From the IMG/VR virus record IMGVR_UViG_3300035204_000098, positions 1 through 30,137 of that record: a stretch of DNA of 30,137 bases; one strand, 5' to 3'. Position numbers and translations under genes: made by a program. The stretch is from a virus. The notes beneath the pieces were generated by a model. That model was not told the origin of the DNA. It worked only from the letters and a program-made list of their open reading frames with translations, and did no database searches. Shown piece by piece: positions 38 through 25,508 of this stretch; the stretch's first letter is position 1; each line of letters starts with the position of its first letter.

Positions 38-111
38 GTGGATCAAAGTTCTGAGCGGTACACGGGCGTCGCTGCTCTTGCCCGTGACCGGTCATAACTT
101 TGAGGATCCAC
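38..111. repeat. Long imperfect hairpin
   Basis: The outer arm GTGGATC (38-44) pairs perfectly with GATCCAC (105-111). Next AAAGTT (45-50) pairs with AACTTT (96-101), with GAG bulged at 102-104. After an internal loop, GGT (57-59) pairs with ACC (87-89), and CACGGGC (61-67) pairs with GCCCGTG (80-86) around a 12-base loop. About 23 base pairs form in 74 bases. The 7-bp end stem and length recall a tRNA, but there is no TTCRA loop or proper anticodon arm. Confidence 0.75.
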
Positions 112-235
112 GGACCACCACTGAACCAGCATCAACCTCACGGCTCTCGGGCAAGATGGACTCGAACTTGTTCGACTCCCTTGCACGACGCCGATGCGGT
201 TGATAGCGAGCAGTAACATCTCCGATGTCGTCGGG

Positions 236-280
236 GATTGCACCTCGGCGCCCTCCCTTTCCCTTGCGCCGACTGCAATC
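236..280. repeat. Hairpin, 7+7 bp stem
   Basis: GATTGCA (236-242) pairs with TGCAATC (274-280). After a small asymmetric bulge, TCGGCGC (245-251) pairs with GCGCCGA (266-272). The 14-base loop ends in TTTCCCTT, the same loop end as in the hairpin at 374-405. Confidence 0.75.
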
Positions 281-373
281 TCTTTCAGAAGTGGTCGGAG
301 CCAAAGGCTTCGGCCGCTGAGGAACCCGACCCACGGCAGGAAAGAGACAGTACCCGACCGAACTGGTGTTCAA

Positions 374-405
374 GCCCGACGCCCGCATTTTCCCTTGCGT
401 CGGGC
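374..405. repeat. Hairpin, perfect 9-bp stem
   Basis: GCCCGACGC (374-382) pairs perfectly with GCGTCGGGC (397-405) around a 14-base loop ending in TTTTCCCTT. It is flanked by two small GAAC-N4-GTTC hairpins at 360-371 and 407-418. These lie in a diverged direct repeat, CGAACTGGTGTTC versus CGAACTCCTGTTC. Confidence 0.8.
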
Positions 406-439
406 CGAACTCCTGTTCGCTCGTGGTGCTGGCTCTGCG

Positions 440-488
440 GATCGTCCACGGATCCCTCCGTGGTGATCGTCCACGGATCACTCCGTGG
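440..488. repeat. Tandem repeat of two identical-stem hairpins
   Basis: A 25-base unit beginning GATCGTCCACGGATC occurs at 440 and again at 465. Each unit holds CCACGGA, a four-base loop and TCCGTGG (446-463 and 471-488). The loops are TCCC and TCAC. The 7-bp stem is conserved while the loop differs, which suggests the paired structure or a bound palindrome is what matters. Confidence 0.8.
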
Positions 489-639
489 CCGCCGGAGGCA
501 CCCTACGACCATCCCACCCACCACCACCCCACAAACCCACGCCCACACCGCTTTACTAGTCATTTCACACCACGAAGCGGACTGCGAATAGCAGGCCGCA
601 TGGGAAAGGGAAGATGGGGGTGTGGTTTGGGGTGTCGTG

Positions 640-668
640 CCACGCGCGTTGGTTTCGCTTGCGCGTGG
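640..668. repeat. Hairpin, perfect 8-bp stem
   Basis: CCACGCGC (640-647) pairs with GCGCGTGG (661-668) around a 13-base loop that ends in CTT, like the loops of the hairpins at 61-86, 236-280 and 374-405. Confidence 0.75.
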
Positions 669-744
669 TGCGTGGTTTCGGTGTGTTTTAGGGTGGGGAT
701 GTACCGGGGGCACCTTCTATATATATGTGTCAGGCTTGTTTTGG

Positions 745-766
745 GGTGTGTGGACACCGGTTTTTT
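745..766 (+). terminator. Possible intrinsic terminator
   Basis: GGTGT (745-749) pairs with ACACC (754-758) around a four-base loop, followed after GG by six T residues (761-766). A short GGGTG-TAGG-CACCC hairpin follows directly (767-780). The stem is short, and no gene to be terminated is visible upstream, so the call is weak. It could end a rightward leader transcript. Confidence 0.35.
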
Positions 767-842
767 GGGTGTAGGCACCCCTTGGGTTCCCTCCGTCCGT
801 TTGTGGCACGGTTCCGCCTGACCTACTACCGTGTTTGGTCTG

Positions 843-871
843 CCCCTGCGCCTCTTGGCTTTGTGCAGGGG
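843..871. repeat. Hairpin, perfect 7-bp stem
   Basis: CCCCTGC (843-849) pairs with GCAGGGG (865-871) around a 15-base loop that itself contains GCC-TCTT-GGC. It belongs to the cluster of stem-loops upstream of the late genes. Confidence 0.65.
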
Positions 872-872
872 G

Positions 873-903
873 CGGTTGCCCTTCTGACGGGCGAACGTAA
901 CCG
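873..903. repeat. Bulged hairpin, 5+4 bp
   Basis: CGGTT (873-877) pairs with AACCG (899-903), and GCCC (878-881) pairs with GGGC (889-892). A six-base bulge lies on the 3' side. It immediately follows the hairpin at 843-871. Confidence 0.55.
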
Positions 904-3451: not shown

Positions 3452-3934
3452 ATGGCTCACTTCGCTGAACTAGACGAAACCAACACCGTCATCAACGTGA
3501 TCGTCGTTCACAACGACATCACCACCATCGACGGTGTGGAAGAGGAACAGAGGGGCATCGACTTCCTCAACGACCTGTACCCGGACTCGGGGACATGGAT
3601 TCAGACCTCCTACAACGACAACATCCGTACCGCCTACGCCGGATTGGGTGCTGTCTATGACGCTGACAACGACCGGTTCAGCCCTCCCAGACCGTTCCCA
3701 TCGTGGATTCTGAACACGGATACGAACGACTGGGAGCCGCCCGTGGCGCGAGTCCCCGGTTACGGCTGGGACGAGCCCACTCTGTCGTGGGTCCAACCCC
3801 CGCAGCCGTTCCCATCGTGGACATGGACGAACGATGAGTGGACGCCACCGACTCCGTACCCCGGCTCACCACCAGACCCGCCGCACTACTACTGGGACGA
3901 AGACACGACCTCATGGGTTGAGATCGAGGAGTAA
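3452..3934 (+). CDS. Trp/Pro-rich virion protein, cassette copy 1
   Basis: The product has 160 residues. The N-terminus (AHFAELDETNTVINVIVVHN) and GIDFLNDLYPDSGTWIQTSY match a family frequent in marine cyanophages and other aquatic phages near fibre genes, of unproven role. The rest repeats short PxPFPSW and WxP units (about 78-84 and 117-123) and ends YYWDEDTTSWVEIEE. GGAGG at 3443-3447 lies close before the ATG. It is paralogous to the gene at 5429. An adhesin accessory or fibre-tip role is a guess from position. Confidence 0.7.
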   Translation: MAHFAELDETNTVINVIVVHNDITTIDGVEEEQRGIDFLNDLYPDSGTWIQTSYNDNIRTAYAGLGAVYDADNDRFSPPRPFPSWILNTDTNDWEPPVARVPGYGWDEPTLSWVQPPQPFPSWTWTNDEWTPPTPYPGSPPDPPHYYWDEDTTSWVEIEE

Positions 3935-6660: not shown

Positions 6661-6938
6661 TGGCTGTATACGATAAAGGCGACCGTGTGCGGGTTACTGC
6701 TACGTTCAAGTCTGCGGGAACGGCGGTGGCTACTACTGCTACTGCCACCCAGCGTAAACCCAGCGGGGTGGATGCCACGTTGTCAGTTTTATCTGGTAGC
6801 GGTACCGGCATCTATTATGTCGATGTTGATTTAGATCAGATCGGTACCCATACGATAAAGATCGAAAGTACCGATGTTGTTATTGCCTCAGAAACGATTG
6901 GGTTAGAGGTAGGCAAGTCGGTGTTCGACCACTCGTGA
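6660..6938 (+). CDS. Small Ig-like beta protein
   Basis: The product has 92 residues predicted as all-beta. It has YDKGDRVRVTATFKSAGTAV, a central GTGIYYVDVDLDQIGTHTIKI and IASETIGLEV. This order resembles the small immunoglobulin-like domains that decorate phage capsids or fibres and bacterial adhesins. It has no signal peptide or membrane segment. TAATG joins it to the preceding gene, and its stop overlaps the GTG start of the terminase. Identification as Ig-like is from the strand pattern only. Confidence 0.55.
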   Translation: MAVYDKGDRVRVTATFKSAGTAVATTATATQRKPSGVDATLSVLSGSGTGIYYVDVDLDQIGTHTIKIESTDVVIASETIGLEVGKSVFDHS

Positions 6939-8635
6939 GCGGATATGGGAATGTCGCTAAAGATAAGGGGATAACTACCCGTACCCTATTTTTAGAGGCG
7001 TTGCATGAACATGGCAAAATTGAAGTTGCCTGTCGAATCGCTGGTGTCACACGGTCGGCATACGATAAGTGGCGTCAACGTATCCCCGATTTTGCTGAAC
7101 GGGCAGATTCGATACGCCAAGATGCTTTAACTCGTGGTGAACAGCCGTGGGATGGGACGTTCGCCTCGTTCCGTGGCAACTACTTCGATCATATGTCTCC
7201 GTGGTTCCATATCCAAGCCATCGACGCCTATGAGAACACCCAGCCGGGTAACTTGACGTTGATCCTATGGCCTCCTGAACACGGCAAGACTACATTGGCT
7301 GAAGATTACTTTTGTTACAAACTTGCAACAAACCCTGAGTTTCGTATCACGGTTGGATCTGAGGGGCAGGATATGTCCCGTAAGGTACTAGGTCGTATCC
7401 GTACCCGTATGGAGCCACAGGGTCCATTCCCACGTTATGTAGCCAAATTCGGTCCATTTGTTCCCCAGAACCAGTCTGGACGTAAAACTGCTCAGACATG
7501 GGGTGCCGATTACTTTGATGTGTACAAGAAGCAGCGTCACGATGAGCGTGATTATTCGATGGTTGCATTGGGGTGGAGATCAAAGATCGCCGGTACCCGA
7601 ACCGACCATCTGCATGTTGACGATATTCAGTCGCGGGTTTCTTTAAATTTGACTGATCAGATGTTTGAAGTGTTCCGGCAGGACTGGTTGACCCGCCCCG
7701 GTGAGAACGGACGAACAACTATTAATGGTACCCGTGTCGGTGAAGACGACTTCTACGAGCGGGTTATGACGGAGATCGACTCAGATATTCTAAAGGTAAT
7801 CAAGTTTCCGGCGATTATTATAAATCAGGATACAAAAGAACCAGAACCGTTGTGGCCTGAAATGTTCACAATGGAAAAACTGGATCGCATCCGCCGCAAG
7901 GTCGGGGAGGACGCTTGGTCACGTAACTATATGCAGGAGCCGTCGTCTTCGTTGTCGGCTACCTTCACTGAGGAGGCTATCCAGAAATGCTTGAATCCAT
8001 TACGGTCGGTGAACCATGAACCGCCAGAAAACTGTTCGATCTATATTGGGCTTGATCCTGCTCTCGGTTCCAACAATTGTGTGGTGGCTGCTACGCCGCA
8101 CGAAGGAAAACTTAAAATTCTTTTCATTCGGGAAGATACTGGGCTGACTCGTAACGAACAGATCCTCGGTGTTGTTGAGGACGCCGTGTTGCAGTGCATG
8201 AGAAATGGGGCGAGTGTTTCTGATGTAGTGATTGAGGCGATGGTGTTCCAGAAGGGACTGTCGCGTGATGAACGACTGATTGAAATGACTAAGCGTTACG
8301 GATTCCGTGTGAGGGAACACTTGACGGGTGTCAACAAGTATGATGAAACAATCGGTGTGCCGTCGATGGCGTTGTCGTTTATGCGCGGTGAGATCGATAT
8401 TCCGTACGCAGACGACAAGTCTACGCAACATATGGTCGATCAGTTTATTCGCCAGTTGAAAGCGTGGCGTCCGTTGAAACGGGGTACACGATTGCGTCAG
8501 GATCAGGTCATGGCATTCTGGTTTATTTGGATCCTATGGCGACAGCGTAAGCAATCATTTGATCTAGATGCTTCACAATTCCAGTTTAAGGGACTACCGT
8601 GGGGATCAACTATGCCCACTAGTAAGGTGTTTTGA
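6935..8635 (+). CDS. terL: Terminase large subunit
   Basis: This is the 566-residue DNA-packaging motor and nuclease. The ATPase part shows Walker A WPPEHGKTT (112-120) and Walker B LHVDD (226-230). The C-terminal RNase H-like nuclease shows YIGLDPALG, with the first catalytic Asp at 374. It also has VVIEAMV, with an acidic residue at 434, and a late RQDQVMAFW segment. Residues 12-60 form a helix-turn-helix-like segment (CRIAGVTRSAYDKWRQRIPDF) that may recognise packaging DNA, a job usually left to a separate small subunit, which I do not find here. The start is GTG, overlapping the previous stop (GTGA); there is no other nearby start. It is followed directly by the portal gene, as usual. Confidence 0.95.
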   Translation: MSGYGNVAKDKGITTRTLFLEALHEHGKIEVACRIAGVTRSAYDKWRQRIPDFAERADSIRQDALTRGEQPWDGTFASFRGNYFDHMSPWFHIQAIDAYENTQPGNLTLILWPPEHGKTTLAEDYFCYKLATNPEFRITVGSEGQDMSRKVLGRIRTRMEPQGPFPRYVAKFGPFVPQNQSGRKTAQTWGADYFDVYKKQRHDERDYSMVALGWRSKIAGTRTDHLHVDDIQSRVSLNLTDQMFEVFRQDWLTRPGENGRTTINGTRVGEDDFYERVMTEIDSDILKVIKFPAIIINQDTKEPEPLWPEMFTMEKLDRIRRKVGEDAWSRNYMQEPSSSLSATFTEEAIQKCLNPLRSVNHEPPENCSIYIGLDPALGSNNCVVAATPHEGKLKILFIREDTGLTRNEQILGVVEDAVLQCMRNGASVSDVVIEAMVFQKGLSRDERLIEMTKRYGFRVREHLTGVNKYDETIGVPSMALSFMRGEIDIPYADDKSTQHMVDQFIRQLKAWRPLKRGTRLRQDQVMAFWFIWILWRQRKQSFDLDASQFQFKGLPWGSTMPTSKVF

Positions 8636-10443
8636 TGTATACCTTTGAGGAAATCGTTGGCATTGTTCGACATCGGCAAGAGTTGCAATCTCCGTTAATC
8701 AGCCGAATGCTGGATGTGCGGGACCGGTATAACGGCGATTATGTTATTCCTATCCCATCGATGGACGATGAGCCGATCCTTCCACCGTTGACACCCGCGT
8801 TGATTGCCGAAAACATTGACGCTGTTGCCCAACGGGCAGCCTCAGTATTACCATTCATTGGTTGTCCAGCAATCAACCCAGCGAAGGAACGGGGTGTCCG
8901 GTCACGCGAATATGCTGACATCCGACGCAGGGCGTTGGCCGCGACATGGTATAACTCTAAATATAAAGTCAAGATCCGTCGCTCTTACCGGCATCTGGCC
9001 GGATATGCCACATCTTGTCTGGTAGTATCCCCTGACTTCGATAATGGTTTACCACGCATTGATGTACGTGATCCGTTAGGCGTGTTTCCCGAACCAAAAG
9101 CATATGAAGATTACGACCCGCCATCAAATTGTGCGTTTATACATGGTAAGTCTGGTGCGTGGTTGCGTAGTCATTATCCGGCTGCGCGAGAAGAAAATGG
9201 TGGGCCAGTCCAGCCAGACGATAGGTCAAGCCAAGAACTCTGGGATATTGTCGAATGGGTCGATGAAGACCACATGGTTATCGGAATCATGGGGCCACGA
9301 TATGACTATCATAGACATGCCCATTCCACCCATTCGGCACAATTGGAACTATCACGATCCGTCAACCGGGCAGGTATCCCGTGTGTGATTACACCGGGGC
9401 GTGTCACGCTTGATAAGATCGCATCATCAATTTCCAACGTAGTCGGCATCGTTGATTTGATGTCAAAGATGATGGCGTTGGAGATCATGGCGCAGGAGAA
9501 GGCAATCTTCCCTGATCGCTATATTATTGGTCGGTCGGGTCAGGTGCCGATGATTGTCGGCGGCGAGTGGAAAGATGGCCGTGAAGGACAGGTAAACATC
9601 CTGCTTGACGCTGAACAGATCGGAGAACTCCGGTCGGCACCTGATCCGTCCACCAACATTGCAATCGACCGATTGGAGCGGAATGCACGGATCTCTACCG
9701 GAACCGTACCTCAAATTGGTGGTGAGACATACGGGGCTTTGCGTACAGGACGGGGCATCGACTCGCTCATGGGTGCTGCACTTGATCCACGCATTCAGGA
9801 GATGCAGGAGATCATGGAGGCTCACCTCCCGCATCTGAACGAATCTATCTTTGCTACTTATAAGGGTTACTTTGGTAGCCAGAAGTTTTCCTTGTATACA
9901 GGTTATGCCGGGGACTTCGGACAGGTTGAGTTCACCCCAGACGAACACTTTGAAACATTTGACAATGTGGTATCGCATTCGATCCCCGGTGCAGACATCC
10001 AATCAACAACTATCCAGTTGGGACAGTTGTTGGGTATGAAGGGGATCAGTTTGCGTACCTTCCGAACCAAGCATCCATTTATTGATGATGCAGAGATGGA
10101 AGGACGGCGAGTCGATGAAGAGCAGTTGGAAGAGGCTGTTCTGGCTGCCATCCAGCAGCAGGCTTTGTCCGGTCAGTTGCCGGTGGTGTATGTCTCTAAG
10201 ATTGAGAAGCATCGCAAGAAGGGTCTTGATATTTTTGAGGCCATCGAAAAGGCAGATGAAGAGATACGGAAGGAACAGGCTGCTATAGCGCCTCCGCCGG
10301 AAGAAGGTATGGCGATGGCTCCTGAGCAGGCACCCGGTTTGGCGGTGGGACCGGAGGGTATGGCACCGCAGGGTCCACCACCTACTAATGAGTTCTCGCC
10401 AGATAATGCGCGACAACTCGTTGATGCGTTGAGGACACAGTAA
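8635..10443 (+). CDS. Portal protein
   Basis: The product has 602 residues and forms the ring at the capsid vertex through which DNA enters and leaves. The start ATG at 8635 shares one base with the terminase stop; a TTG one codon earlier is less likely. Length and position directly after terL fit a portal. The middle also fits: long helices around VDLMSKMMALEIMAQEKAIF, then NARISTGTVPQIGGETYG and LMGAALDPRIQEMQEIMEAH, as in portals of actinobacteriophages. The tail (from about residue 540) is Pro/Met/Gly-rich (MAMAPEQAPGL, MAPQGPPP), low-complexity as in many portal ends. Confidence 0.85.
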   Translation: MYTFEEIVGIVRHRQELQSPLISRMLDVRDRYNGDYVIPIPSMDDEPILPPLTPALIAENIDAVAQRAASVLPFIGCPAINPAKERGVRSREYADIRRRALAATWYNSKYKVKIRRSYRHLAGYATSCLVVSPDFDNGLPRIDVRDPLGVFPEPKAYEDYDPPSNCAFIHGKSGAWLRSHYPAAREENGGPVQPDDRSSQELWDIVEWVDEDHMVIGIMGPRYDYHRHAHSTHSAQLELSRSVNRAGIPCVITPGRVTLDKIASSISNVVGIVDLMSKMMALEIMAQEKAIFPDRYIIGRSGQVPMIVGGEWKDGREGQVNILLDAEQIGELRSAPDPSTNIAIDRLERNARISTGTVPQIGGETYGALRTGRGIDSLMGAALDPRIQEMQEIMEAHLPHLNESIFATYKGYFGSQKFSLYTGYAGDFGQVEFTPDEHFETFDNVVSHSIPGADIQSTTIQLGQLLGMKGISLRTFRTKHPFIDDAEMEGRRVDEEQLEEAVLAAIQQQALSGQLPVVYVSKIEKHRKKGLDIFEAIEKADEEIRKEQAAIAPPPEEGMAMAPEQAPGLAVGPEGMAPQGPPPTNEFSPDNARQLVDALRTQ

Positions 10444-10847
10444 TGCCACGTAAGAAGGCAACGGCGACGTTACCGGCTGAGGCGCCGGGGTTGGAGGCTG
10501 GTGCTGCTTACGGGGAAACGGGTGAGAATCTTATGGCCCAAGATCCTGAAGCGGGTATCCCGTTGCCTGATAGGCGTACGGAGGGTGGGCTTGCGCCAGC
10601 GGTTGCTCCGGGTATGCCAGAAGGTGGTGCGCCTGCGCTTCCTGTTGATGTTGCAAGTAACTTTCCGAATACGGTCACACCTCTTACTGCTCCGGGTCAG
10701 GGCATTAATCAAACGTCTGCGCCTGTCACTATTTCTAATGAGATGCGGGCAGCAGAGTTGTTGAGTAAGTGGGCTGACGCTAGCGGAGATGTTGCCGTGC
10801 GGAATGCTGCGTCACAGTTGTCTGGGCGTTTGTTCAATAATGGCTAG
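10443..10847 (+). CDS. Small Ala/Pro-rich protein after the portal
   Basis: The product has 134 residues with a basic start (MPRKKATA). A long Ala/Pro/Gly-rich disordered stretch (about 10-90) follows, then a short helical end (NEMRAAELLSKWADASGDVA, about 98-117). Composition resembles the Pro-rich tail of the portal just upstream. It may be a disordered capsid-internal or portal-associated protein; nothing diagnostic is seen. It overlaps the next gene by eight bases. Confidence 0.6.
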   Translation: MPRKKATATLPAEAPGLEAGAAYGETGENLMAQDPEAGIPLPDRRTEGGLAPAVAPGMPEGGAPALPVDVASNFPNTVTPLTAPGQGINQTSAPVTISNEMRAAELLSKWADASGDVAVRNAASQLSGRLFNNG

Positions 10848-13800
10848 GTGGAGGCCACGCGCCCAGCAGCAGCAGTTTTATAATAATAATGATATTGAGG
10901 ATTTGAACAGCGAGTATTACGGGCGTCGTACCGGCTTGTTGATGGATTCTGGTGCTGGCCGTTGGTTCCAAGCGGATTCGGCTGGTTTGGTGGGGTTGGC
11001 TCAAAGCACGCTGTCTGATGATGACATGCTTGAAACTTTGCTTATTGCAGATGGTCAGGTGCGTTTGAACGAATTGAGGAGCCGGTTTGAGTCGTTGCCT
11101 CCACAGATGCAGAAGCCGGAATTTGAGATGCTTCCGACTACTACACGCAAGTTGTTGACGGCTGCCGGTTACAGCCCAGAAGAAGAACAGCAGAAAGGAT
11201 TGCTTCATCGTATAACAAGTTGGGATATTCCTCTGCTCCCAGAGGAATGGCTTGTCGATAAGGGTGTTATCGGGAGTAGTGCTTTAGGTGCGGGTTTGGG
11301 TGTGGTAGCGATGCCTTTCCGTGGTGTGGGGTTTTTTCTCGGTAAGGGTGCCAGTGGTGCATGGGAAGGGTTGATGAAGTTCAACCGGTTTGCCCGCCAT
11401 ACGGGACGGTCGTATGCGTATATCGAAGAGGGCGACGATAACACGGCATTTCTTAGTGCTAAGCGTTGGTATCAAGCATGGAATAGAACGCAGATCGAGG
11501 AAGATTCTTTTACAGATAAGTCGATAAGACAATCGATTGAACTTATTGGTTCTCAGAATACTGAGGCGCTACGCCAATATATGTCGGATCCTAAGGGGTT
11601 GTACGAATACTTCCTTAACCAAGGTGAATCTGCCGGACAGAGTGAAGAACAGGTCCGGCAGAAGTATTACGAGTTTGAACAACGCCTTACCAGACCTGAC
11701 TTTCGGGCAGCGATGGAAACGCTGGATGGTGCCCGGTTGGATGGATTCAATTATTCTATCCGGCTTTACAACAGGCACAATTTTGGGTTGCCAGAGGTTG
11801 ATCGGGATTCGTGGGCTGGTAAGACGGTTGGGATGACCGGATCGTTGGCCCAAGAGATCCTGTTGGATCCTCTCACATGGGTTGGTGGGTTCTATACAAA
11901 GGTTATCAATCGGGCACGCGCAGGGCTTCGTGGTGGTAGTAATCGCCAAGCCCTTGATATGTTTAAGGCTGTAACCCTTATTGAACGTGAAGCGAAGGGT
12001 AGGGCAGCGTTTGCTCAGGGTATGAGCCAGCATGCCGATCAGGTCGCTGCTTGGCTCAACGAACGAAGGGGTATCAATCTAAAGAATCTGGGTTTGCTCA
12101 ATATGAATCTACGGGCGCAGGGTCGCGCCCAGAACCGGATGATTGATCGAATCAATCGTGCCTTCAGGGAAATCAACGAAATCCAAGACGAAGTTGCTGC
12201 TCTCAGGATTGAGTTGGGTGATGCTGCACCTCGGAAGTGGGAACTAGAAGCGTTGGCAATGAAAAATCTGGGTATGGATAGATCCCCGTTGACGGCGTTG
12301 AGCCGTGATTTCCCATCGTTGGATCCCATTATCGAAGATATGAGGCGCTGGCATGCCCGACAGCGTGGCACGGTTATTATCAAAACAAGAGCCAAACGAG
12401 ATCCTGTCAGAATCACTGAAGACATACCTGCTGGACAGGGTATTCCGAAAGAAAAATTGGTAGATGCCGACAGGGTTGAATTCAAGCATTTGTGGGATGA
12501 CGATCTTGTGTCAGGTGATGTTTTCATCGGCCCAGACGGTATAGATTTCGTTTACCACAAAGGAATGGACAATCCGTTCCGGGCAAAAGACACAGACAAT
12601 ATGGTGATGGCCGATCTGTCTACCTTCGACGGATACTGGAACTTTCTGGGCAGCACAAGCGGTCAACTTGGGTTGGCGACACGGGCCGGTGGTGTCAACC
12701 CGGAAGCAATGTGGTTGCCTCGCATTTCGGCCTTCGGAGCAGGGTGGGTCAAGGGTAAGAAATATATGCGAGAGGTGTTGGACTTCGCATTGCCGCAGCA
12801 TGCACTTGAAGCAGATCTTGCCCAGATGTTCTCTACGTTCCTTACGAAGCAGACATCTTATGTTATTGACCGGGTTGCTGATGATATTAGCGAAGGTGTT
12901 ATCAAACTGTCAGAAGGCGCGCAGGTAGATAAGCAAACAATCCAAAAAATCTATAATGAACCTAATCCTCAGAATAAATTGGCTCTTGGTAAGCAGGCAG
13001 GTTTGGGTACAGCCGATGTCATGCTTATCGAAAAGCATCTAACAGATGTATTGCCTGATGCGAAGCGGCTCATTCTTGAAGATGGCGATTTGTCCACCAT
13101 GCTCAACTGGTATCAGGACGCTGGATTCAAGTTTGATGAGGCAGCACGGGCAGAAGGAAAGTTGCAGATACGACGGCAGGCGATGGCTGTGCCGTTCTCT
13201 GGCGCTGGAAGGGCTGCACGGAACTATTACAGGAACCAGATGCATCCAATTGGTTCCATGAATGCGGAGATTTCCCGGCTGCATCATGTGAAGGCGATTA
13301 CTGAGAGTATGGCTGTTGCGGCTGCCTACTATCCGGCGAAGTGGGCTGAGAAACTTACCACTTTCACTCCTCGTACGAAGTATATGGATATCACCGATAA
13401 GGATACGGCGATACGAGAGTTCAAGGCGTTAGTTGATATGGGTTCGTTGGCGCATATGCCTCGTACCCAGATCGACCGCTACCTCAGTGTTTTCATAGCG
13501 GGTGATGAAGCGCAACGGTGGGTAGTCCAGACGCAGTTCCTTATGGATTTCCTTGGGCGTTCAGGTGCGCTTATCCACGGTGGCGAGCAAATGCAGGAAT
13601 ACGTTTCTCGCTTCATCAGGCATGCGGGTGCCCATTATTCGATGACGAATGCAGACAGTGTTGGTCTTTATGGGGTAACCATGAAGCGTGCCATTATGGG
13701 TTCGGCGCATCACGAAAGCCAGTTGTCTGCGTTGAACGTGATCCCAGATTATGCACAGTTGGCTGTTCTGTCGAAGCATCTGTCGTTTTATAGGAAAATC

Positions 13801-16800
13801 GGTTGGGGTACACCTCTCTCATGGATTGATAAACAGTTCGCCCGGTATTGGCGCCCAGCGGTGCTACTCCGGTTGGGGTATGTGGCTCGTAATGGTGGCG
13901 AAGAGTTGTTCTCATGGTGGTTGCGTGAAGGCCCGAAGCATTACTTCCATCAGAAACTTGCGAAGGCTGCGAGCGATACAAAAGTTGTTTACGATGAGTA
14001 CGGTCGTAAGATCGTTAAGGATATACATAAATTAGTTGACGATCCCAAACTGAATGAGCAGTTGCACCAGTCGATTATCTGGAAGCCGATGGTCGGTGTG
14101 CAGCGTGCTATGAATGAGGTTTTGGGTGTCGGTGATATGGCTATCACGACTAAGGCTTTAAAACAGGCTGTAGAACAAAATAAGATGCGATGGTCGTTTA
14201 TGTCGGCAGATGAACAAGAAGAACTGTTCATGGCTGCCCGAAATGAAATATTGATAGCCACGCAGAGGCGTCCGTTGGGGATAGTCGGTCGTGGTCTGAT
14301 GGAACTGGGACAACTCGCATCTCAGAAGACAGCACACTTTTTCCAGAAGCAGGCAGCATGGACTCGTAGACACGGCGGGGGTATCCCGACCCGTCAGCAA
14401 ATGGCTGAGAGGGTTCTGGGGTACAAGCGCGGCAAGTTTGTGATCGACCCAGACCACGAATTGCGTATAGAACTAGCCGGTATGATGATGACTAAGCCGA
14501 CGATTCTTGATCAGCAGATGAAAACCATTCTCGGCGCTTACGACGTTTATACCAATTTTGATAAGAACGGGTTGCAAAGTCTTATGAAGTCGCAGGGTGT
14601 GGGGAACACTGTGCCGGATCTGATGAAGTTGCCGATGGATTACACAGCGTCGGAGATGTCGTTTATTGAAAATATTGGCGACGAAAACAATATGGATAAG
14701 GCTATCGCAATCGCTCAGATGCTTGGTCATATAAAAGACAGCGAACCGCTTAAAGCATATGCGAGGGTATTGCAGCACCATGTGCCTGCCGTAGTGGAGC
14801 GTTCGGCAATGGTTACTGCGGAACGTCTACTTGATTTACTCAACGATTACGAGAAGCGAGAGTTTGTTGGTTATGCAGGCAGACCTGCACATACCCTTCC
14901 GGGGAGTCCCGGCGAACCTGTGACATTCGGACCAACCGGTGTGACAGAACTACCGATTACCACGGCGTATTTGTCTGAGGAAGCAGAACCAGTAATCGTA
15001 GTTGTTTCAGGTTTGCGATCACGAGGGTTGGATAGGCATACCCAAATCCAATTGCAGACACGCATCCGGTCTTCTTTGGAGTCGTTGCCAGATGGTTCAA
15101 CTGTGCGCGTTGGCGGCGCTGACGGTGTTGACCGGTGGGCTGAAGATATCGCAGAGGAATTGGTGGCGGCGGGTAAGGATCTCACGATTGAACGGTATTA
15201 CGTACCGGGAGAAGGGAAAGAGTCGTGGCGGGCAACTAGGGGCGCTGGGCATATACGTAATCGGAGGATGTTGGAAGGCCGGATGGCGGATCCGGGGACA
15301 GGTGCAGAAGTTGCGCGTAATCCGAAAGCAGACGCGCTTTGGGCTTTCCATATGGGTGAAGGGGCGAGAGTCCAGCCGTCTGAAGCCACGATGGCTATCG
15401 GGGGGTTGACTGGCCGTGGGTTGAAGCGTTTGACGGAAGGAGGCGGGACTCGTATTGCTGTTCCGTTAACTGATATTGCTAAACGGTTGAACTTGGTTGA
15501 GGGAGAAGGTGTTGCTCGTTTGCCGGTGCGGGGTGAAACTATCGCTTTGCGGGTCAATGTTGGGAAACAGACAGATTATGTCGCAGATCCGACTTCCCCT
15601 GCTGGTGCAACAACTGTCGCAGGGATGGACGAAGGTTTGGATCCATTTATTGGACCCGGTTATGTGACAAGACAGACGGCTGGTTTTAGCGAAGGCAATG
15701 TTGTTGTAGTGGAAGTCAAGAGCGTTCAGGTCATCAGCCCCGGTGACGAACTATTTGATGCTATTGATCCTGCTGACTTTGTTTTCTCAGATAAAGGTTC
15801 AGATATTCTTATAGCACTTGAACAGCGCACAATCGGATCTGGTCAGCAGGGGTATACGAATATAGGAAATTTGGGTCCGGGTAGACAGTTTGAATGGCGA
15901 ACCTCTGACCCGCATTCTCGTAAGAATGTTCCGGTTAATAAGATCCCCAGAGAAGACGCTGATGCTGTTGTTTTGATCCATGTCGAAGAGGTTGCTCCTG
16001 ATGTGAAATCAGCCGTAAGTACCGACCCCGCAATGGGTAGGGGTACGGCGGGTGCGATGCGAGAAGCGATGCATCGTGATATCAAGATCGATAATCAGGC
16101 CACGTTTGGTAATCCGGGCATTATCCCTGAGGGTGTTAAGCAGCGGGGCCATTACGAGCGTGCGCGAAATGAATTGGTAGATGCGGGCCATGATGTCAAG
16201 GAAGGTGTTGAGGGGGATCAGACTGTGTTGCGTGCCTATAAGAAGGGCACGGCGAGGGGCGAACAGTATGTTGCTGCGGAGCCTGCTGTAGAACCGAAGT
16301 CTGCTACACAGACTGTGTTGATGCTTCTGGATAAGCAGGCTCCGAGGGCTAAGGCGAGGTTGCGAGAGGGATTTTTGCATGGTGATGCGGCGTGGAATGA
16401 CGCTGTTGATGATGTGTTGGATATGGTTCCGGCGCATACGCGGCATATTTGGGAGGATTTGCTTCGTCCGCCGGAGAGTGGGCGGCCTACTCCGTCTGCG
16501 ACTACTGGTGTTGATCCGTTTGCTACTCCTCCGGCGGGTGCTGCTCCTGCTGCTGTCACTCCGAAGAAACATTTAGCAATGAAATACAAGTACGGGGAAG
16601 AAGGGGCGTTGCCTGCTGCTGCGGGTATTACATCTACTAATACCTTTGATGCTATTAATGCTGGTGAGCGAACGGCGACAACTAGAACAATCCGGTCTGG
16701 TCAGTTGGAGGATGTAGAGGTCGGGGACATTATCGGGTTTACCAGTGGGGATGCGACGAAGCCTGTACCGATTCATGTGCGTGTGACTGAGAAGCGTTTG

Positions 16801-19800
16801 GCTGGGGATGTTACGCCGGAAGAGTGGGCCAGAGTTGAGGGTTATGACGCTGCGGCTGCTGCTGAGAATTGGACTGAAGGTAAGAAGTTTAGTGAGCAGC
16901 GTCAGATTACTTATGAGTTGGTAGAAGATGCTCCTGCTGCTGCTGGTGCAGCACCGCCTGTTGTTAAAATTATTTCTGGTGGACAATCAGGTGTCGATAC
17001 CGCAGGGCTGCGTGTCGGACAGGAACTAGGTCTTGAAACTGGTGGGACTATGCCCGCCGGGTTCCGCCGATTCGATGATACGGGTACTAGAGAGACAAAT
17101 GATCCTGACTTCGGAGCGAAGTTCGGTATGGTCGAACATGAGAGCCGTGGTTGGGCGGGCCGTACAGGATCAAATGCTACTGAAGGTGACGGAACTATTT
17201 GGATTGGGCATACTGATAAGACTCCACATCCTGATAAGGCTGGTTTCATAGCGACACGCCGGGAAGTAAAGAAGGCCGGTAAGCCGTTTATTGTTAATCC
17301 GTCGAAGGAAGAGTTGTTGCAGTGGATGACGGATAACAATGTTCGGGTCTTGAATGTTGCGGGTCCGCGTACTCCTCAGGCGGGGGATGAGGCTGCGGAG
17401 TTTTTGAGGGATGCGTTGAGTCCTCCTGCTGCTGCTGATGTTGCTCCTACTGGTGCCGTTGTAACTAATGCCGCTGGTCAAACAATCGTCCACGGTCAAA
17501 GCAACCAGAATGTGATTCTGTCCAACTGGGCAGAGGCTCCGTTCACTTATAAGGGTGTCGAATTCCTTACTGCTGAGGGTGCCTATCATGCCCATAAGAC
17601 AGGCAGATTTGTAGCAGGGTTTGAGGAGGTAAGCGGTAAGAGGGCGTTAGAGAAGGCCAGAGAACAGGGTCTTGTTATCCCAAGAGAAATGAAAGAGATA
17701 GATGCCAATGTGGATATTATGCGTGAGATTCTTGAGGCTAAGTGGGAGCAGGTACCAAGGTTCAGGAATGCTTTGGCTGAATCTGGTGAGATTGTCCATC
17801 CGGTAGGGGATTCGTTTTGGAGGGAGAAGTTTCCTGAACTGTTGACAGAGTTGCGTGACCGTAAGGGTGTACCTACTCCTACGGATGCTGTTCCCCCGAC
17901 CGGTGCCGTCCCCCCTGCCGGTGCTATCCCACCAGCCGACATACCCCGAACTGATATCGACCGGCAGGTCGCAGCGATGCTTTCCAACGGTGTCGATCCC
18001 GCATACCTAACAGACGACTTTGGTTTGATCGTAGAGCGTGCCCGACAGGCGCTCATATCAGAACAGGCAACCCCGGAACAGCAGTCGATGGCGCACAGTA
18101 TGGCCCGCGCTCATATAGGTACAGATCGTCTAGCACCAGAACTTACACATCCTATCCCTGATGACATGCTCCGTTATTACGTTCCGATGATTCCTATTGA
18201 ATTGGCAGAAGATGTTACTGAAGTAATAATGCCGATTACGAACAAGTATGCAGATCAGGCAACAGAGTTTCGTGATTTCTTCTTAAGGTCGTTGCAGGAC
18301 AAACTAGACCGGTTGGGTGTTACGGGACCGGCAGCGGAGCATGCTCGTCTGTTGTTGAATCCTGCTGCGACTATCCCGAATGTAGGCGGGACAGCGACTT
18401 CGTATATGCAACTTGCAGCCCATTGGGCTAGTGCACAGGTAAGCCATTTCCCATTGGTTACAGGGTCTACTGATGGTCGTGTAGCCCATGCGATTGGTGA
18501 GGCGTTGATTGAGACAGTGGCCCGTCAGCGTGGTGTATCTCGTGAATCGCTTGGTTTGAGCCGGTTGAGGACACGCGATGTCAGCGGTGATGAGTTCTTT
18601 AACAGTCGTGGCGGTGTCGCCAATATGGATGAAACAACAAGAGGCAACATAGCAGGGCCAAGTAATAACGGTGTGTTGACGGATGATCGTGACACATTCG
18701 GTGCGATCTATTACGGCTATGGGCCACAGGGGCTAGCACCGGCAGCAGCGTTTGGTGAGGGCGGGCTGAAGAACAATACGGTGTTCGGTATTGGCGCTCA
18801 TACTCTTGCATACCCTGCTGATTGGAAAGAGGTTCCGATGGCTAGTGGTAAGCCGGTACAAAAGCGGCTGTCTATTTATAAGCATCGTGCGGGCGAACGT
18901 CCTAATGCGGTTGTTCGTGAAGGCACAGAGATTGAGACTAGTTGGTATAACGATGATGAGTGGGAGTTGGTTACGGAGCAGTTCGCCACGGGTGACGATC
19001 TCTTTGATTTCATTGAAGAAATGGGGCATATCAATGGAACGGAGATGTTGCATTGGTTGACAAATGTATCGCGTGGCGGAGAGCCGGAAGCGTTCGGGCC
19101 GTGGCTAATGGAAATATTGAGGGACGACAAGATTAGCCTAGAGAATGTTATTAATCATACGGGGGGGGCTAATTGGTGGTCTAAGGCACCTAAGCAGATG
19201 ACAGGGTATTCGTCTGCTGTGGCGGAGCCTAGCGGTGCGTGGATGAACCTTGTTCGGAATTGGTTTGATGGGATTGTGAACCCGATGATCGGGGGGATGG
19301 TCCGTGAGCCTTTGTTCCTGCATTATCTGGTGAAGGCTTGGAAGCAGACGAAAGATATCAGGCAGATGCACTGGCATAAGCCTGCGGCTGTTGAGCGGAT
19401 CAAGCATCTGGGTAGGTTGGATGAAGATGGACAGTTCGTTATAGATGAGTTGAAGACTTTCTTGTCGCATGACTGGCCGATGGCAGGGTTGGATCCCGAC
19501 ACACCGATATCAAGATTCGCTTTCGCTGTTGACAATCAGGATCCTTATCGGGCGAAGGAAACGATCAAGGATCTGTTGGCAATGAAGAACGATCCTGAGT
19601 TGGGTACTATTGCTTTGTCTAAACCACAGAGAGAATTTTATAGTGCTCTCGCTAAGTTGGACGATAAGGGATTTGAAGCCTTCTTTAAATGGGCTAAGGG
19701 GCGTCGGGCAGCGGACGATCTGCATCTTGATGCTGCACTCAAGCGGGCTATGACATTGACTAGCGCGTTTATCGATGACCATCGTATCCGGTCACAGTTC

Positions 19801-21444
19801 CAAACTATGGTCCGAACGGCTGTTCCCTTCTGGTTCGCAGAGGACCAGTTCCTACGCCGTCTTGGGCGGGGTATGGCCCATAATCCGTTGATGATGCGCC
19901 GTCTGAATCTCACAATGAATTCGGCAGAACACATGGGGTTTGTGCAGGAGGATGCTAACGGTACGCAGTGGTTGTTGATTCCCGGTAATGAGATGTTGAC
20001 AAACCATATGGTAGAGATCGCAAACGATTTCCCGATTGTCGGCAAGTTCCTTGGTGGCCCGTTGGGTGGGTTGTCTCGGGCGTTGATGGCGCCGAAGGCT
20101 ATGAATATCCATGTCATTCCGGGTTACGACTTGGAGACAATGGGGCAGATGGGTCTTGGTCCGATCTTGTCGGTACCGATCAACGCGATTGGTAATAGGG
20201 ATGCGTCGATCAGGCCGATGTTTGAAAAGAATATGGTTGGTGGACGTTGGACACCGGATTCGACTTTGCATCAGTTCTGGACTTCGGCTGTTCCGTCGAT
20301 CATTGTGAAGCCAACTGTTGCGATGTTTGCCCAGTTGGGTATGGAACCGGATCGTGTTATCAAGGCTCAGAGTGATGTGATTAAGTCGATGGCGCTTCGT
20401 GGCGACCTGCCGACAGAGGAAGAGATCGCACAGCAGGCTAATCCTGAGTTGTTTATGGAAGAATTGATGGAGCAGATCGCGCAGGAAGCACGGCATTATC
20501 TGTGGTTCCAGACGTTCACATGGTGGCTTGGACCCGGTACTGGTAAGGACACGAACCTTATCCAGTCTAAGGGCTGGGAGTGGAACGAAGAATTTTACGA
20601 GTTGTTGAGTTCAGGTATCAGTTGGGAAGAGGCATACCGTACGTGGGTAGACAAGATCAAGGCTGAAGAAGGGGTGTTTGATCCGTATCAGTATTCGCCG
20701 TTCATGGTTGCGAAGACGGACAAGGTGCCGTTTGCTGTGATGGAGAGTACCCAGATTGCGAATAAATGGATTGTAGGCAATGAGCCGTTCCTTAGTACCT
20801 ATAAGTATGCGGGTGCGTTCTTTATGCCCCGTACGTTCGGGGAGGATGTCGTAGACGAATATTCTGCTGAGGCTCATAGTCGGCAGTTGGCGCTTGGGTT
20901 GCGTCATGGGGTCGCACCAAGAGGAATCTTGGAGAACATATATGCAGACGCGGCACAACATAAGTATTTCAAAGTACGCAGCAAGTATCTGACAGATTTG
21001 TTTACCGCTAAGGCAAACAATCAGCCTACAGAACTTATTGAGAAGCAGTGGGACATGGATCAGGAAATGTTCTTGGTTAGTAATCCCATATTTATGAAGC
21101 AGTTCCAGAGTGGTGAGGCTCGTGAACGGCGTGCTAGGACTCTGGAAGAGTTGAAGGTTCTTGTCGCTAACCCGGAACTTGTGCCGGATGGCCCGTATAA
21201 GGCTGAGATTCTGTTGATGGCGACGATGATGACCGGGTTTGTTGAGGGTATCCGTAGGTTGGAAGGTGCGACTGGTAGGTCAGCGCAGCAGCAGCGGGAT
21301 CAGTTGCGGATAGGTGCGTTTGAAACGCTTACAGATTATGTGTATGGCCGACCGTATTTAAACGAACTATATTATAGTGTATTCTTGCCTACGTTGGGCG
21401 ATACTTGGATCGCCAAGTTCAATGCTGGATTGATTGAGGTCTAA
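10840..21444 (+). CDS. Giant polyvalent virion protein (SLOG, ASCH, SLOG, NADAR)
   Basis: The product has 3534 residues from the ATG at 10840 (MARWRPRAQQQQ); the frame is open 17 codons further upstream. The long N-terminal third (1-1380) and C-terminal third (about 2376-3534) are helical and of phage internal-protein character. The middle holds a YspA/DUF2493-type SLOG (1383-1510; GGADGVDR 1425-1432, GHIRNRRM 1470-1477). An unassigned stretch (1511-1900) comes next. An ASCH domain follows (1911-2029; GERTATTR 1942-1949), then a YpsA/MoCo-carrier SLOG (2041-2194; SGGQSGVD 2046-2053). Last is a NADAR domain (2217-2342; LSNWAEAPFTYKG 2227-2239, AEGAYHAHK 2245-2253). Ala/Pro linkers separate the last three and end in PPTGAVPPAGAIPPAD. 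NADAR enzymes remove ADP-ribose from guanine and SLOG domains bind or process nucleotides. Sitting between portal and capsid genes, it is probably packaged and ejected to counter host defence. That role is inference; the domain calls are by motif. Confidence 0.85.
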   Translation: MARWRPRAQQQQFYNNNDIEDLNSEYYGRRTGLLMDSGAGRWFQADSAGLVGLAQSTLSDDDMLETLLIADGQVRLNELRSRFESLPPQMQKPEFEMLPTTTRKLLTAAGYSPEEEQQKGLLHRITSWDIPLLPEEWLVDKGVIGSSALGAGLGVVAMPFRGVGFFLGKGASGAWEGLMKFNRFARHTGRSYAYIEEGDDNTAFLSAKRWYQAWNRTQIEEDSFTDKSIRQSIELIGSQNTEALRQYMSDPKGLYEYFLNQGESAGQSEEQVRQKYYEFEQRLTRPDFRAAMETLDGARLDGFNYSIRLYNRHNFGLPEVDRDSWAGKTVGMTGSLAQEILLDPLTWVGGFYTKVINRARAGLRGGSNRQALDMFKAVTLIEREAKGRAAFAQGMSQHADQVAAWLNERRGINLKNLGLLNMNLRAQGRAQNRMIDRINRAFREINEIQDEVAALRIELGDAAPRKWELEALAMKNLGMDRSPLTALSRDFPSLDPIIEDMRRWHARQRGTVIIKTRAKRDPVRITEDIPAGQGIPKEKLVDADRVEFKHLWDDDLVSGDVFIGPDGIDFVYHKGMDNPFRAKDTDNMVMADLSTFDGYWNFLGSTSGQLGLATRAGGVNPEAMWLPRISAFGAGWVKGKKYMREVLDFALPQHALEADLAQMFSTFLTKQTSYVIDRVADDISEGVIKLSEGAQVDKQTIQKIYNEPNPQNKLALGKQAGLGTADVMLIEKHLTDVLPDAKRLILEDGDLSTMLNWYQDAGFKFDEAARAEGKLQIRRQAMAVPFSGAGRAARNYYRNQMHPIGSMNAEISRLHHVKAITESMAVAAAYYPAKWAEKLTTFTPRTKYMDITDKDTAIREFKALVDMGSLAHMPRTQIDRYLSVFIAGDEAQRWVVQTQFLMDFLGRSGALIHGGEQMQEYVSRFIRHAGAHYSMTNADSVGLYGVTMKRAIMGSAHHESQLSALNVIPDYAQLAVLSKHLSFYRKIGWGTPLSWIDKQFARYWRPAVLLRLGYVARNGGEELFSWWLREGPKHYFHQKLAKAASDTKVVYDEYGRKIVKDIHKLVDDPKLNEQLHQSIIWKPMVGVQRAMNEVLGVGDMAITTKALKQAVEQNKMRWSFMSADEQEELFMAARNEILIATQRRPLGIVGRGLMELGQLASQKTAHFFQKQAAWTRRHGGGIPTRQQMAERVLGYKRGKFVIDPDHELRIELAGMMMTKPTILDQQMKTILGAYDVYTNFDKNGLQSLMKSQGVGNTVPDLMKLPMDYTASEMSFIENIGDENNMDKAIAIAQMLGHIKDSEPLKAYARVLQHHVPAVVERSAMVTAERLLDLLNDYEKREFVGYAGRPAHTLPGSPGEPVTFGPTGVTELPITTAYLSEEAEPVIVVVSGLRSRGLDRHTQIQLQTRIRSSLESLPDGSTVRVGGADGVDRWAEDIAEELVAAGKDLTIERYYVPGEGKESWRATRGAGHIRNRRMLEGRMADPGTGAEVARNPKADALWAFHMGEGARVQPSEATMAIGGLTGRGLKRLTEGGGTRIAVPLTDIAKRLNLVEGEGVARLPVRGETIALRVNVGKQTDYVADPTSPAGATTVAGMDEGLDPFIGPGYVTRQTAGFSEGNVVVVEVKSVQVISPGDELFDAIDPADFVFSDKGSDILIALEQRTIGSGQQGYTNIGNLGPGRQFEWRTSDPHSRKNVPVNKIPREDADAVVLIHVEEVAPDVKSAVSTDPAMGRGTAGAMREAMHRDIKIDNQATFGNPGIIPEGVKQRGHYERARNELVDAGHDVKEGVEGDQTVLRAYKKGTARGEQYVAAEPAVEPKSATQTVLMLLDKQAPRAKARLREGFLHGDAAWNDAVDDVLDMVPAHTRHIWEDLLRPPESGRPTPSATTGVDPFATPPAGAAPAAVTPKKHLAMKYKYGEEGALPAAAGITSTNTFDAINAGERTATTRTIRSGQLEDVEVGDIIGFTSGDATKPVPIHVRVTEKRLAGDVTPEEWARVEGYDAAAAAENWTEGKKFSEQRQITYELVEDAPAAAGAAPPVVKIISGGQSGVDTAGLRVGQELGLETGGTMPAGFRRFDDTGTRETNDPDFGAKFGMVEHESRGWAGRTGSNATEGDGTIWIGHTDKTPHPDKAGFIATRREVKKAGKPFIVNPSKEELLQWMTDNNVRVLNVAGPRTPQAGDEAAEFLRDALSPPAAADVAPTGAVVTNAAGQTIVHGQSNQNVILSNWAEAPFTYKGVEFLTAEGAYHAHKTGRFVAGFEEVSGKRALEKAREQGLVIPREMKEIDANVDIMREILEAKWEQVPRFRNALAESGEIVHPVGDSFWREKFPELLTELRDRKGVPTPTDAVPPTGAVPPAGAIPPADIPRTDIDRQVAAMLSNGVDPAYLTDDFGLIVERARQALISEQATPEQQSMAHSMARAHIGTDRLAPELTHPIPDDMLRYYVPMIPIELAEDVTEVIMPITNKYADQATEFRDFFLRSLQDKLDRLGVTGPAAEHARLLLNPAATIPNVGGTATSYMQLAAHWASAQVSHFPLVTGSTDGRVAHAIGEALIETVARQRGVSRESLGLSRLRTRDVSGDEFFNSRGGVANMDETTRGNIAGPSNNGVLTDDRDTFGAIYYGYGPQGLAPAAAFGEGGLKNNTVFGIGAHTLAYPADWKEVPMASGKPVQKRLSIYKHRAGERPNAVVREGTEIETSWYNDDEWELVTEQFATGDDLFDFIEEMGHINGTEMLHWLTNVSRGGEPEAFGPWLMEILRDDKISLENVINHTGGANWWSKAPKQMTGYSSAVAEPSGAWMNLVRNWFDGIVNPMIGGMVREPLFLHYLVKAWKQTKDIRQMHWHKPAAVERIKHLGRLDEDGQFVIDELKTFLSHDWPMAGLDPDTPISRFAFAVDNQDPYRAKETIKDLLAMKNDPELGTIALSKPQREFYSALAKLDDKGFEAFFKWAKGRRAADDLHLDAALKRAMTLTSAFIDDHRIRSQFQTMVRTAVPFWFAEDQFLRRLGRGMAHNPLMMRRLNLTMNSAEHMGFVQEDANGTQWLLIPGNEMLTNHMVEIANDFPIVGKFLGGPLGGLSRALMAPKAMNIHVIPGYDLETMGQMGLGPILSVPINAIGNRDASIRPMFEKNMVGGRWTPDSTLHQFWTSAVPSIIVKPTVAMFAQLGMEPDRVIKAQSDVIKSMALRGDLPTEEEIAQQANPELFMEELMEQIAQEARHYLWFQTFTWWLGPGTGKDTNLIQSKGWEWNEEFYELLSSGISWEEAYRTWVDKIKAEEGVFDPYQYSPFMVAKTDKVPFAVMESTQIANKWIVGNEPFLSTYKYAGAFFMPRTFGEDVVDEYSAEAHSRQLALGLRHGVAPRGILENIYADAAQHKYFKVRSKYLTDLFTAKANNQPTELIEKQWDMDQEMFLVSNPIFMKQFQSGEARERRARTLEELKVLVANPELVPDGPYKAEILLMATMMTGFVEGIRRLEGATGRSAQQQRDQLRIGAFETLTDYVYGRPYLNELYYSVFLPTLGDTWIAKFNAGLIEV

Positions 21445-24516: not shown

Positions 24517-25508
24517 TGCCACATCTTTCCGGTCCACCACACTTCAGGCCAGCGAGTGAAGGGCATGAGGATGACAAGGTTCACATTACAACTGACCAAG
24601 ATTATTCAAGTATTCTAAGCAACCGGTGGATGGCTAACGTCCCCGAACTAGATGCTCTTATCAATAGGTGGATTACGAAACTATCGGATCCAAACTATAC
24701 GATAAGTGAAGAACTTGCACTTATCGACTTTGAAGAAGAACTTGAATCTACAACATGGTGGTCTACTCATACGGAGGCGTGGAGAACCGCCGAAGAAAAC
24801 AAGTGGCGGGATCTGACCACTTGGGAAGACAATCTAGAAACACATAAGGAATATATTGCTGGTCTGGTTGCGCGAACCGGCTATCAGTATACAGAAGAGC
24901 AGTTGGAAAATTTGGCTGATCTGAGTTTGCACGGGTTTGAGGGTGGGCTTACTGAGACTCAGTTACTACGACATATTTATAGAGATAACTATGACGCTAC
25001 TGAAGAACTGCCGACTGGGACGCTTACAGGCGACTACGACAGTTTGTTGGCGCTTGCTGAAGGAAACCTGCTACCGGTCACGGACATGATGAAGAGGAAT
25101 ATGAAGGACTGGTCGTACAAGATTGCGATGGGTGAGGGGACTCTTGCTCAGGCTAAGGAAAGCATTTACGATATTGCTTCCACGAATGGGCATTATTCGT
25201 TCTTGGGGCAGGATAAGTGGGATAAGTGGCAGCGGAATGGTATGACGTTGACTGCGTTTCTGGATCCGTTGAGGCAACAGGTGGCGGATATTTGGGAACA
25301 GGATGTCAGTCGGATTGATATGACTAGCGATTTCTTCAAAGACAACTCGGTGATAACAGATGCAGATACGGGTGTTCAGCGTTTAGCGACTAATGGGGAC
25401 ATCAAGAGGGCGGCTATGGCCGATCAGAAGTATCTGAACACGAGTGCGTATAAGAAGGATGAGGCTGAGACTCAGGCTACTTTGCTTGGAATGTTCGGGG
25501 TGATCTGA
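24516..25508 (+). CDS. Helical hypothetical virion protein
   Basis: The product has 330 residues, acidic and Trp-rich, apparently all-helical (IDFEEELESTTWWSTHTEAW, GYQYTEEQLENLADLSLHGF, MKRNMKDWSYKIAMGEGTLA). It has no signal peptide, membrane segment or catalytic motif I can name. Its overlapping start and stop tie it to the genes at 23908 and 25508, so an internal structural role with those proteins is likely. Confidence 0.6.
   Translation: MPHLSGPPHFRPASEGHEDDKVHITTDQDYSSILSNRWMANVPELDALINRWITKLSDPNYTISEELALIDFEEELESTTWWSTHTEAWRTAEENKWRDLTTWEDNLETHKEYIAGLVARTGYQYTEEQLENLADLSLHGFEGGLTETQLLRHIYRDNYDATEELPTGTLTGDYDSLLALAEGNLLPVTDMMKRNMKDWSYKIAMGEGTLAQAKESIYDIASTNGHYSFLGQDKWDKWQRNGMTLTAFLDPLRQQVADIWEQDVSRIDMTSDFFKDNSVITDADTGVQRLATNGDIKRAAMADQKYLNTSAYKKDEAETQATLLGMFGVI

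Follow-up and report, generated by a model that had tools for sequence, protein, structure and literature searches.

The first ~980 bases of the window, by which we mean the whole 30,137-nt stretch of an IMG/VR fragment analysed here, are best explained as a noncoding RNA locus flanked on one side by a leftward gene block and on the other by a rightward late operon, a locus of uncultured, mostly marine phages that has gone unrecognised. An earlier note on this DNA had described a cluster of G+C-rich hairpins upstream of the late genes; the conserved part of the region, which that note's title did not single out, is a structured RNA of about 230 bases at ~728-956 on the + strand, folded into four helices and an H-type pseudoknot. 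Taken alone, the existence of this conserved structured RNA is a conclusion in which we have high confidence.

Structure and covariation of the conserved RNA

Compared against 80 loci that carry a relative of the head protein, positions of about 690-932 form the most conserved noncoding stretch. The 5' end of the RNA was set from a promoter-like site and its 3' end from the pseudoknot. Along the + strand, helix HA (804-819) holds a conserved loop, ACGGUUCN, on a stem that covaries, and helix HC (840-875; CUGCCCCUGC...GCAGGGGGCGG) occurs in many G-U variants. The core motif GCCCNUYURACGGGCGAAC (878-896) consists of hairpin HD and GAAC, and is followed by helix HE (898-914), whose stem covaries strongly, and by the 3' pseudoknot (916-955), in which 916-921 pairs with 942-947 and 935-938 with 952-955.

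Covariation across relatives, which the earlier note had named as a check on its hairpins, is present in the stems of this RNA, where compensatory changes exceed those of shuffled and slid controls. Among 28 sequences of the window-like group 1 (alignment A1), the 23 named pairs are standard at a rate of 91.6% and include 34 two-sided cells, where shuffling leaves 10.8 +/- 2.9 and slid versions give 1-18. For HE, the count across 21 sequences from groups 1 and 3 (alignment A4) is 28 two-sided cells, compared with 11.6 in shuffles. HD is invariant in these alignment sets, and L167 carries a double change there from GCCC/GGGC to GUCC/GGAC. The pseudoknot is 98.2% paired in 17 sequences of a sister subgroup, with 20 two-sided cells against 5.4 +/- 2.5 shuffled; its helix a is 100% paired both in that subgroup and in the window's own, where two of its pairs change on both sides among seven sequences. 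Helix b takes slightly shifted registers in the window's subgroup, as judged by eye. On the + strand the A1 pairs include 68 G-U against 4 A-C cells, and from this excess we conclude that the RNA is read from +, noting that the count leans toward that strand because the structure was chosen on it. RNAalifold returned a poor mixed structure from an unrefined alignment; the helices were defined by eye and then tested with controls, so that some selection is involved. The covariation nonetheless fixes the fold well enough to pick stem-breaking and stem-restoring changes.

Distribution and genomic setting

Some 75 IMG/VR contigs, from uncultured and mostly marine phages, carry the conserved RNA, and nearly every record tested has it in a single copy. 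A search for its core, GCCCNTYTRACGGGCGAAC, matched 78 IMG/VR stretches; the matches in L112, L119 and L159 look like chance pattern matches and were rejected. The core records split into group 1, group 3 (L084, L090, L108, L117, L132, L104 and others) and group 2 (34 contigs), and a variant core, GGGCGATC, is found in L161-L163 and L165. A covariance model built from group 1 recovers group 1, group 3 and the variant with E from 1e-53 to 1e-5; for the majority of group 2 it picks out no more than the 38-nt core. None of 4227 Rfam families matches the RNA in the window at either the gathering or a relaxed threshold. Isolate phages gave no DNA match, and the RNA was not found in those that we fetched as the nearest terminase or head-protein relatives; a separate comparison yielded a single match, to Hafnia phage Enc34 at E 0.04. 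A search of 296 genomes of the same class as the sole MAG with the RNA (G027) found no further copy. A structured RNA without a known family, kept in one genome place by many uncultured phages, is a clear target for work on function.

All long genes from 1029 to the window end are on the + strand, with few gaps between them. The first late gene encodes a head protein (phrog_240, 1029-1415) and is followed further on by a terminase large subunit of the phrog_38 type (6935-8635) and a portal (8632-10443); the gene for the major head protein is truncated by the window end. In relatives whose contigs extend to the left, the genes there point leftward, so that the region is the intergenic space between two divergent blocks. 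A coding role for 1-1028 was rejected, since its open reading frames have no convincing match in Pfam or PHROGs and several indels between the window and L021 are not multiples of three. Downstream of the portal, an open reading frame of 3551 amino acids (10789-21444) contains a cpYpsA/SLOG domain (E 1e-18) together with a weak NADAR stretch and a GTP-binding stretch, and its product is probably a giant multi-domain virion protein. It had suggested an N4-like virion polymerase served by DNA-hairpin promoters, an idea dropped when no polymerase was found in Pfam, PHROGs or PDB.

In groups 1 and 3 the RNA runs in the same direction as late or terminase genes and lies shortly before them. In group 2 (for example L089 and L101), only the 38-nt HD-HE core is common; the RNA is opposite to its flanking genes and abuts the 3' end of the terminase large subunit gene. 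Wherever a terminase large subunit gene was found, it lies within about 8 kb of the RNA, including the abutting genes of group 2, and this proximity is the one positive point for a packaging function, in which the terminase would use the RNA or its DNA; late genes cluster anyway. Known packaging RNA belongs to phi29-like phages, which have a different motor. The RNA described here resembles that of phi29 as a structured phage RNA near packaging functions, but it has no Rfam match and accompanies a phrog_38-type terminase in place of the phi29-like motor.

The packaging site that the earlier note had offered as one explanation of the hairpins gains nothing from the ends of the contigs. Of 40 contigs in groups 1 and 3, 17 have an end in the 400 nt upstream of the core, where 1.5 would be expected, and downstream there is none. 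These ends are scattered over 44-350 nt upstream of the core, and G010 and G017 each have ends that overlap one another across G-runs, which points to assembly breaks and not fixed genome ends. Fixed cos ends are ruled out on the same grounds, and the pile-up of ends upstream of the RNA (as in G010, G017 and G018) looks like an assembly effect; G010 and G017 look like complete genomes opened there. Scattered and overlapping ends speak against fixed ends and not against headful pac packaging, and the G-U pairs are more in keeping with RNA than with a DNA site. We regard a packaging RNA or packaging site as improbable, the least likely of the explanations that we weigh.

Flanking signals and a possible role in late transcription

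A promoter-like ATGTACC followed by TATATATATG lies at 699-727 on the + strand and is conserved in sequence: in 29 distinct sequences, ATGTRCC is followed about 12-17 bases on by an AT-rich box, 176-222 nt before the core. Judged by its sequence and placement, the ATGTRCC site would serve as a promoter; a consensus scan found no sigma-70 site. Between the pseudoknot and the first late gene, where a ribosome site also lies, is TAGCAT (971-976, +; TATCAT in relatives), which may be the -10 box of a second late promoter. No terminator-like site was found on + at 759-1029, and the U-run 3' of HE sits within the pseudoknot loop, not behind a hairpin.

Because no U-tract terminator was found before the late genes, we take the RNA as a late leader. 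The RNA at ~728-956 would probably be transcribed on + from ATGTRCC/TATATG at 699-727 and would most likely form the 5' leader of a late transcript of ~29 kb; the uninterrupted direction of the late genes and their few gaps resemble a single long operon. Like a put-type antiterminator, the nascent folded leader would act in cis on RNA polymerase and confer processivity throughout the late operon. We favour this structured, cis-acting antiterminator of the late operon tentatively, as an explanation more apt to be wrong than right in its full form. It does not account for the opposite orientation of the RNA and the sharing of the core only in group 2, and the late genes may have their true promoter in the TATCAT that lies between RNA and gene. 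Within the late operon, terminator-like sites are no more frequent than in shuffles and so give no sign that antitermination is needed, and the 3' RNA is no demonstrated match for put. If the RNA is a leader controlling the whole late operon, it would be a late switch built on RNA, of a kind that the lambda model does not cover. In lambda, the 6S RNA or late leader is a transcript of ~200 nt between the late promoter and the late genes; an intrinsic terminator marks its end, and it is Q-dependent. The RNA of ~230 nt before the late genes here is similar, but the terminator was not found.

The properties of group 2 also make a stand-alone, trans-acting RNA nearly as likely as the late leader. 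Such an RNA would have its own promoter, would be processed or terminated before the late genes, and might act, for example, on the host polymerase, the ribosome or virion assembly. A complex pseudoknotted fold present in a single copy per genome would suit such an RNA, as would the independence of its orientation from flanking genes in group 2 and the possible second promoter 3' of it. Against these points, no intrinsic terminator was seen after the RNA in group 1, and the RNA holds a tight position before the late genes in groups 1 and 3. We therefore consider the trans-acting RNA possible at a slightly lower level than the late leader; if it acts near the terminase, the very short list of phage RNAs involved in making virions would widen.

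A close precedent for the late leader is that of the HK022 putL and putR sites, which give cis-acting folded leader RNAs of two stem-loops at the start of phage operons (PMC9378689); these short paired stem-loops act over 10 kb or more (PMC9378689). The put RNAs are ~70 nt, belong to early operons and curb pausing and termination with no phage protein involved, whereas the RNA here is ~230 nt, pseudoknotted and placed before late genes.

The hairpin block and the tandem units

The four hairpins for which the earlier note had reported loops ending in CTT beside a 3' arm starting in GC are all present as described. They lie at 61-86 (7 bp, loop GTCGCTGCTCTT), 245-272 (7 bp, loop CCTCCCTTTCCCTT, within the arm 236-280), 374-405 (9 bp, loop CCGCATTTTCCCTT) and 640-668 (8 bp, loop GTTGGTTTCGCTT). 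CTT-loop hairpins of at least 6 bp number 4 in 38-903 against a shuffled mean of 0.04, a count reached in none of 300 shuffles. The clustering itself also held up: a mechanical scan of 38-903 gives ten perfect stems of at least 6 bp (8 non-overlapping; 2.5 expected), and the 7 non-overlapping perfect stems of at least 7 bp compare with 0.65 in shuffles, none of 300 of which reach that number. Individual hairpins beat their own shuffles by 2.7 to 5.4 s.d. Folding energy, on which the earlier note had staked its proposal, is far better than that of shuffled sequence, at -335 kcal/mol for 38-720 on + against -265 (z = -10.9, 20 shuffles); on the - strand z is -7.0 (20 shuffles).

On the + strand, pair probabilities are mostly near or above 0.9 for the arms 38-111, 120-214, 230-330, 334-494 and 637-671. 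Arm I (38-111; 0.89-1.0) nests helices 38-50/96-111, 56-59/87-90 and 61-68/79-86 beneath an apical loop ending in CTT, and Arm II (120-214) nests helices beneath an apical hairpin at 162-175 with the loop CTTG. Arm III (230-330) combines hairpin 236-280, apical part 245-272, with a 13-bp hairpin at 290-318 that has three G-U pairs on +. Arm IV (334-494) contains nested helices at 343-436 with apical hairpin 374-405 and encloses two tandem 24-nt units, and the fourth CTT-loop hairpin extends to 637-671 with 11-12 bp, including G-U pairs on +. A segment at 597-616 is complementary to two of the loops: that of 245-272 matches 602-611 over 10 bp (none of 200 shuffles), and that of 374-405 matches 606-616 over 11 bp including one G-U, the Watson-Crick part of which arises in 26 of 200 shuffles. 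In L021, one loop base and its partner in 597-616 are both changed, from C-G to A-U (by eye). The loops of 61-86 and 640-668 have perfect 10-nt complements inside late genes, at 1615-1624 and 3475-3484, near chance expectation for 30 kb. A 9-bp perfect hairpin with loop CAAGTTCTT lies on the - strand at 24700-24726, in a coding region.

Across relatives the block (~38-510) beats shuffles on + in all 18 loci tested (z -3.0 to -11.3), compared with z of -1.5 to +0.9 in five coding control stretches. Its sequence is hypervariable, being wholly different in G010 despite 97% identity of the head proteins, and the contig breaks a short way upstream of the RNA explain why few relatives show it. Of the close relatives found, L021 alone clearly shares the CTT hairpins: the stems of its counterparts to 374-405 (at L021 1-25) and 640-668 differ while the loop ends are kept. 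A similar loop, GCCCTTTCCCTTT, is found in L163 in a similar place, where its 10-bp stem is unrelated. Pattern searches for further blocks like the window's returned only L021/L121 and unrelated matches. The earlier note's suggestion of a family of related RNA hairpins thus stands for the window and L021, where loop ends are kept on changed stems, but the CTT set itself is lineage-specific. The neighbouring conserved RNA also has conserved loops on covarying stems (A1 helix 1: 26 two-sided cells). In L160, L167 and L168, a homologous block shows five two-sided pair changes, a number reached in 7 of 500 shuffles and in no slid version.

Further hairpins occur in other records. Many copies of a short hairpin, GTAGCAATCTNCGATTGCACAG, are found in the noncoding block in L016 (1600-2400), L160 and L168, and adjacent perfect hairpins of 13 and 12 bp, unrelated in sequence to the window's, lie about 450-500 nt before the core motif in L099. 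In L008 (~1180-1240) and L010 (~2270-2325), a stretch bearing TTGACA or TTTACT immediately precedes a 9-10-bp hairpin and T-run on +, possibly giving a very short transcript.

The two tandem 24-nt hairpin units, GATCGTCCACGGATCNCTCCGTGG, at 440-488 on + are an element separate from the CTT hairpins. With up to 3 mismatches, the unit occurs at one site in ten other records and at two sites in one, in the same orientation wherever the conserved RNA shares the record. Among 12 distinct copies, four pairs show two-sided change (9 cells against 1.4). In L008 (1105-1153 and 2119-2142) and L166 (1227 and 3471), units flank a leftward gene of unknown function, as if it had been inserted between them.

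The late leader that we favour would have the block at 38-690, tandem units included, as a second, fast-evolving folded domain, probably of same-strand RNA, with CU-rich apical loops that are able to pair with 602-616. Support for a + strand origin of the block is modest, the mean z being -6.6 on + and -5.8 on - (paired difference -0.77, sd 1.38, n = 18). The block might instead be a - strand leader of the leftward (early) operon with the tandem units as put-like stem-loops; these units resemble those of HK022 by shape alone, as two adjacent stem-loops. Leftward genes do start to the left in relatives, the units precede leftward genes in L008 and L166, and the + strand is C-rich at 450-600. 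With the lower mean z on +, and with the informative wobble pairs of the window and L021 falling on +, we think a leftward leader unlikely.

We judge the earlier note's replication origin slightly less likely still, and see no positive support for it. The block and units would then be DNA hairpins or protein sites, and the switch in the sign of GC skew at 550-650, near 590, would mark bidirectional replication. Where pairs in the block arms and tandem units change on both sides, one Watson-Crick pair nearly always replaces another, as would also be expected of DNA hairpins. However, the divergent direction of the genes also accounts for the skew, the block stems 290-318 and 637-671 contain G-U pairs on +, and units are also found between leftward genes in L008 and L166.

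Finally, the block and the 3' RNA might together make up a single large phage RNA (~0.9 kb), ornate and of a new class, that is linked to the late or packaging module and has its CU-rich apical loops docked on an internal purine segment. We hold this doubtful; if correct, fast-evolving 5' arms would be joined to a widespread pseudoknotted 3' domain that is conserved across diverse marine phages. GOLLD and ROOL are phage-borne, large, pseudoknotted noncoding RNAs, and in GOLLD the 3' part is conserved and the 5' part less so (PMC12286853), a layout that would apply here only if the block and the 3' RNA belonged to a single molecule. The RNA here is likewise phage-borne, pseudoknotted and noncoding, but differs in having no Rfam match and in lying at the late operon. 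GOLLD and ROOL are often beside tRNA genes, whereas a scan for such genes found none in the window or in those group 1 relatives that it covered. The group 3 phage contig L090 carries a Pistol ribozyme and one tRNA-Lys gene, at 11841-11906 and 12061-12134.
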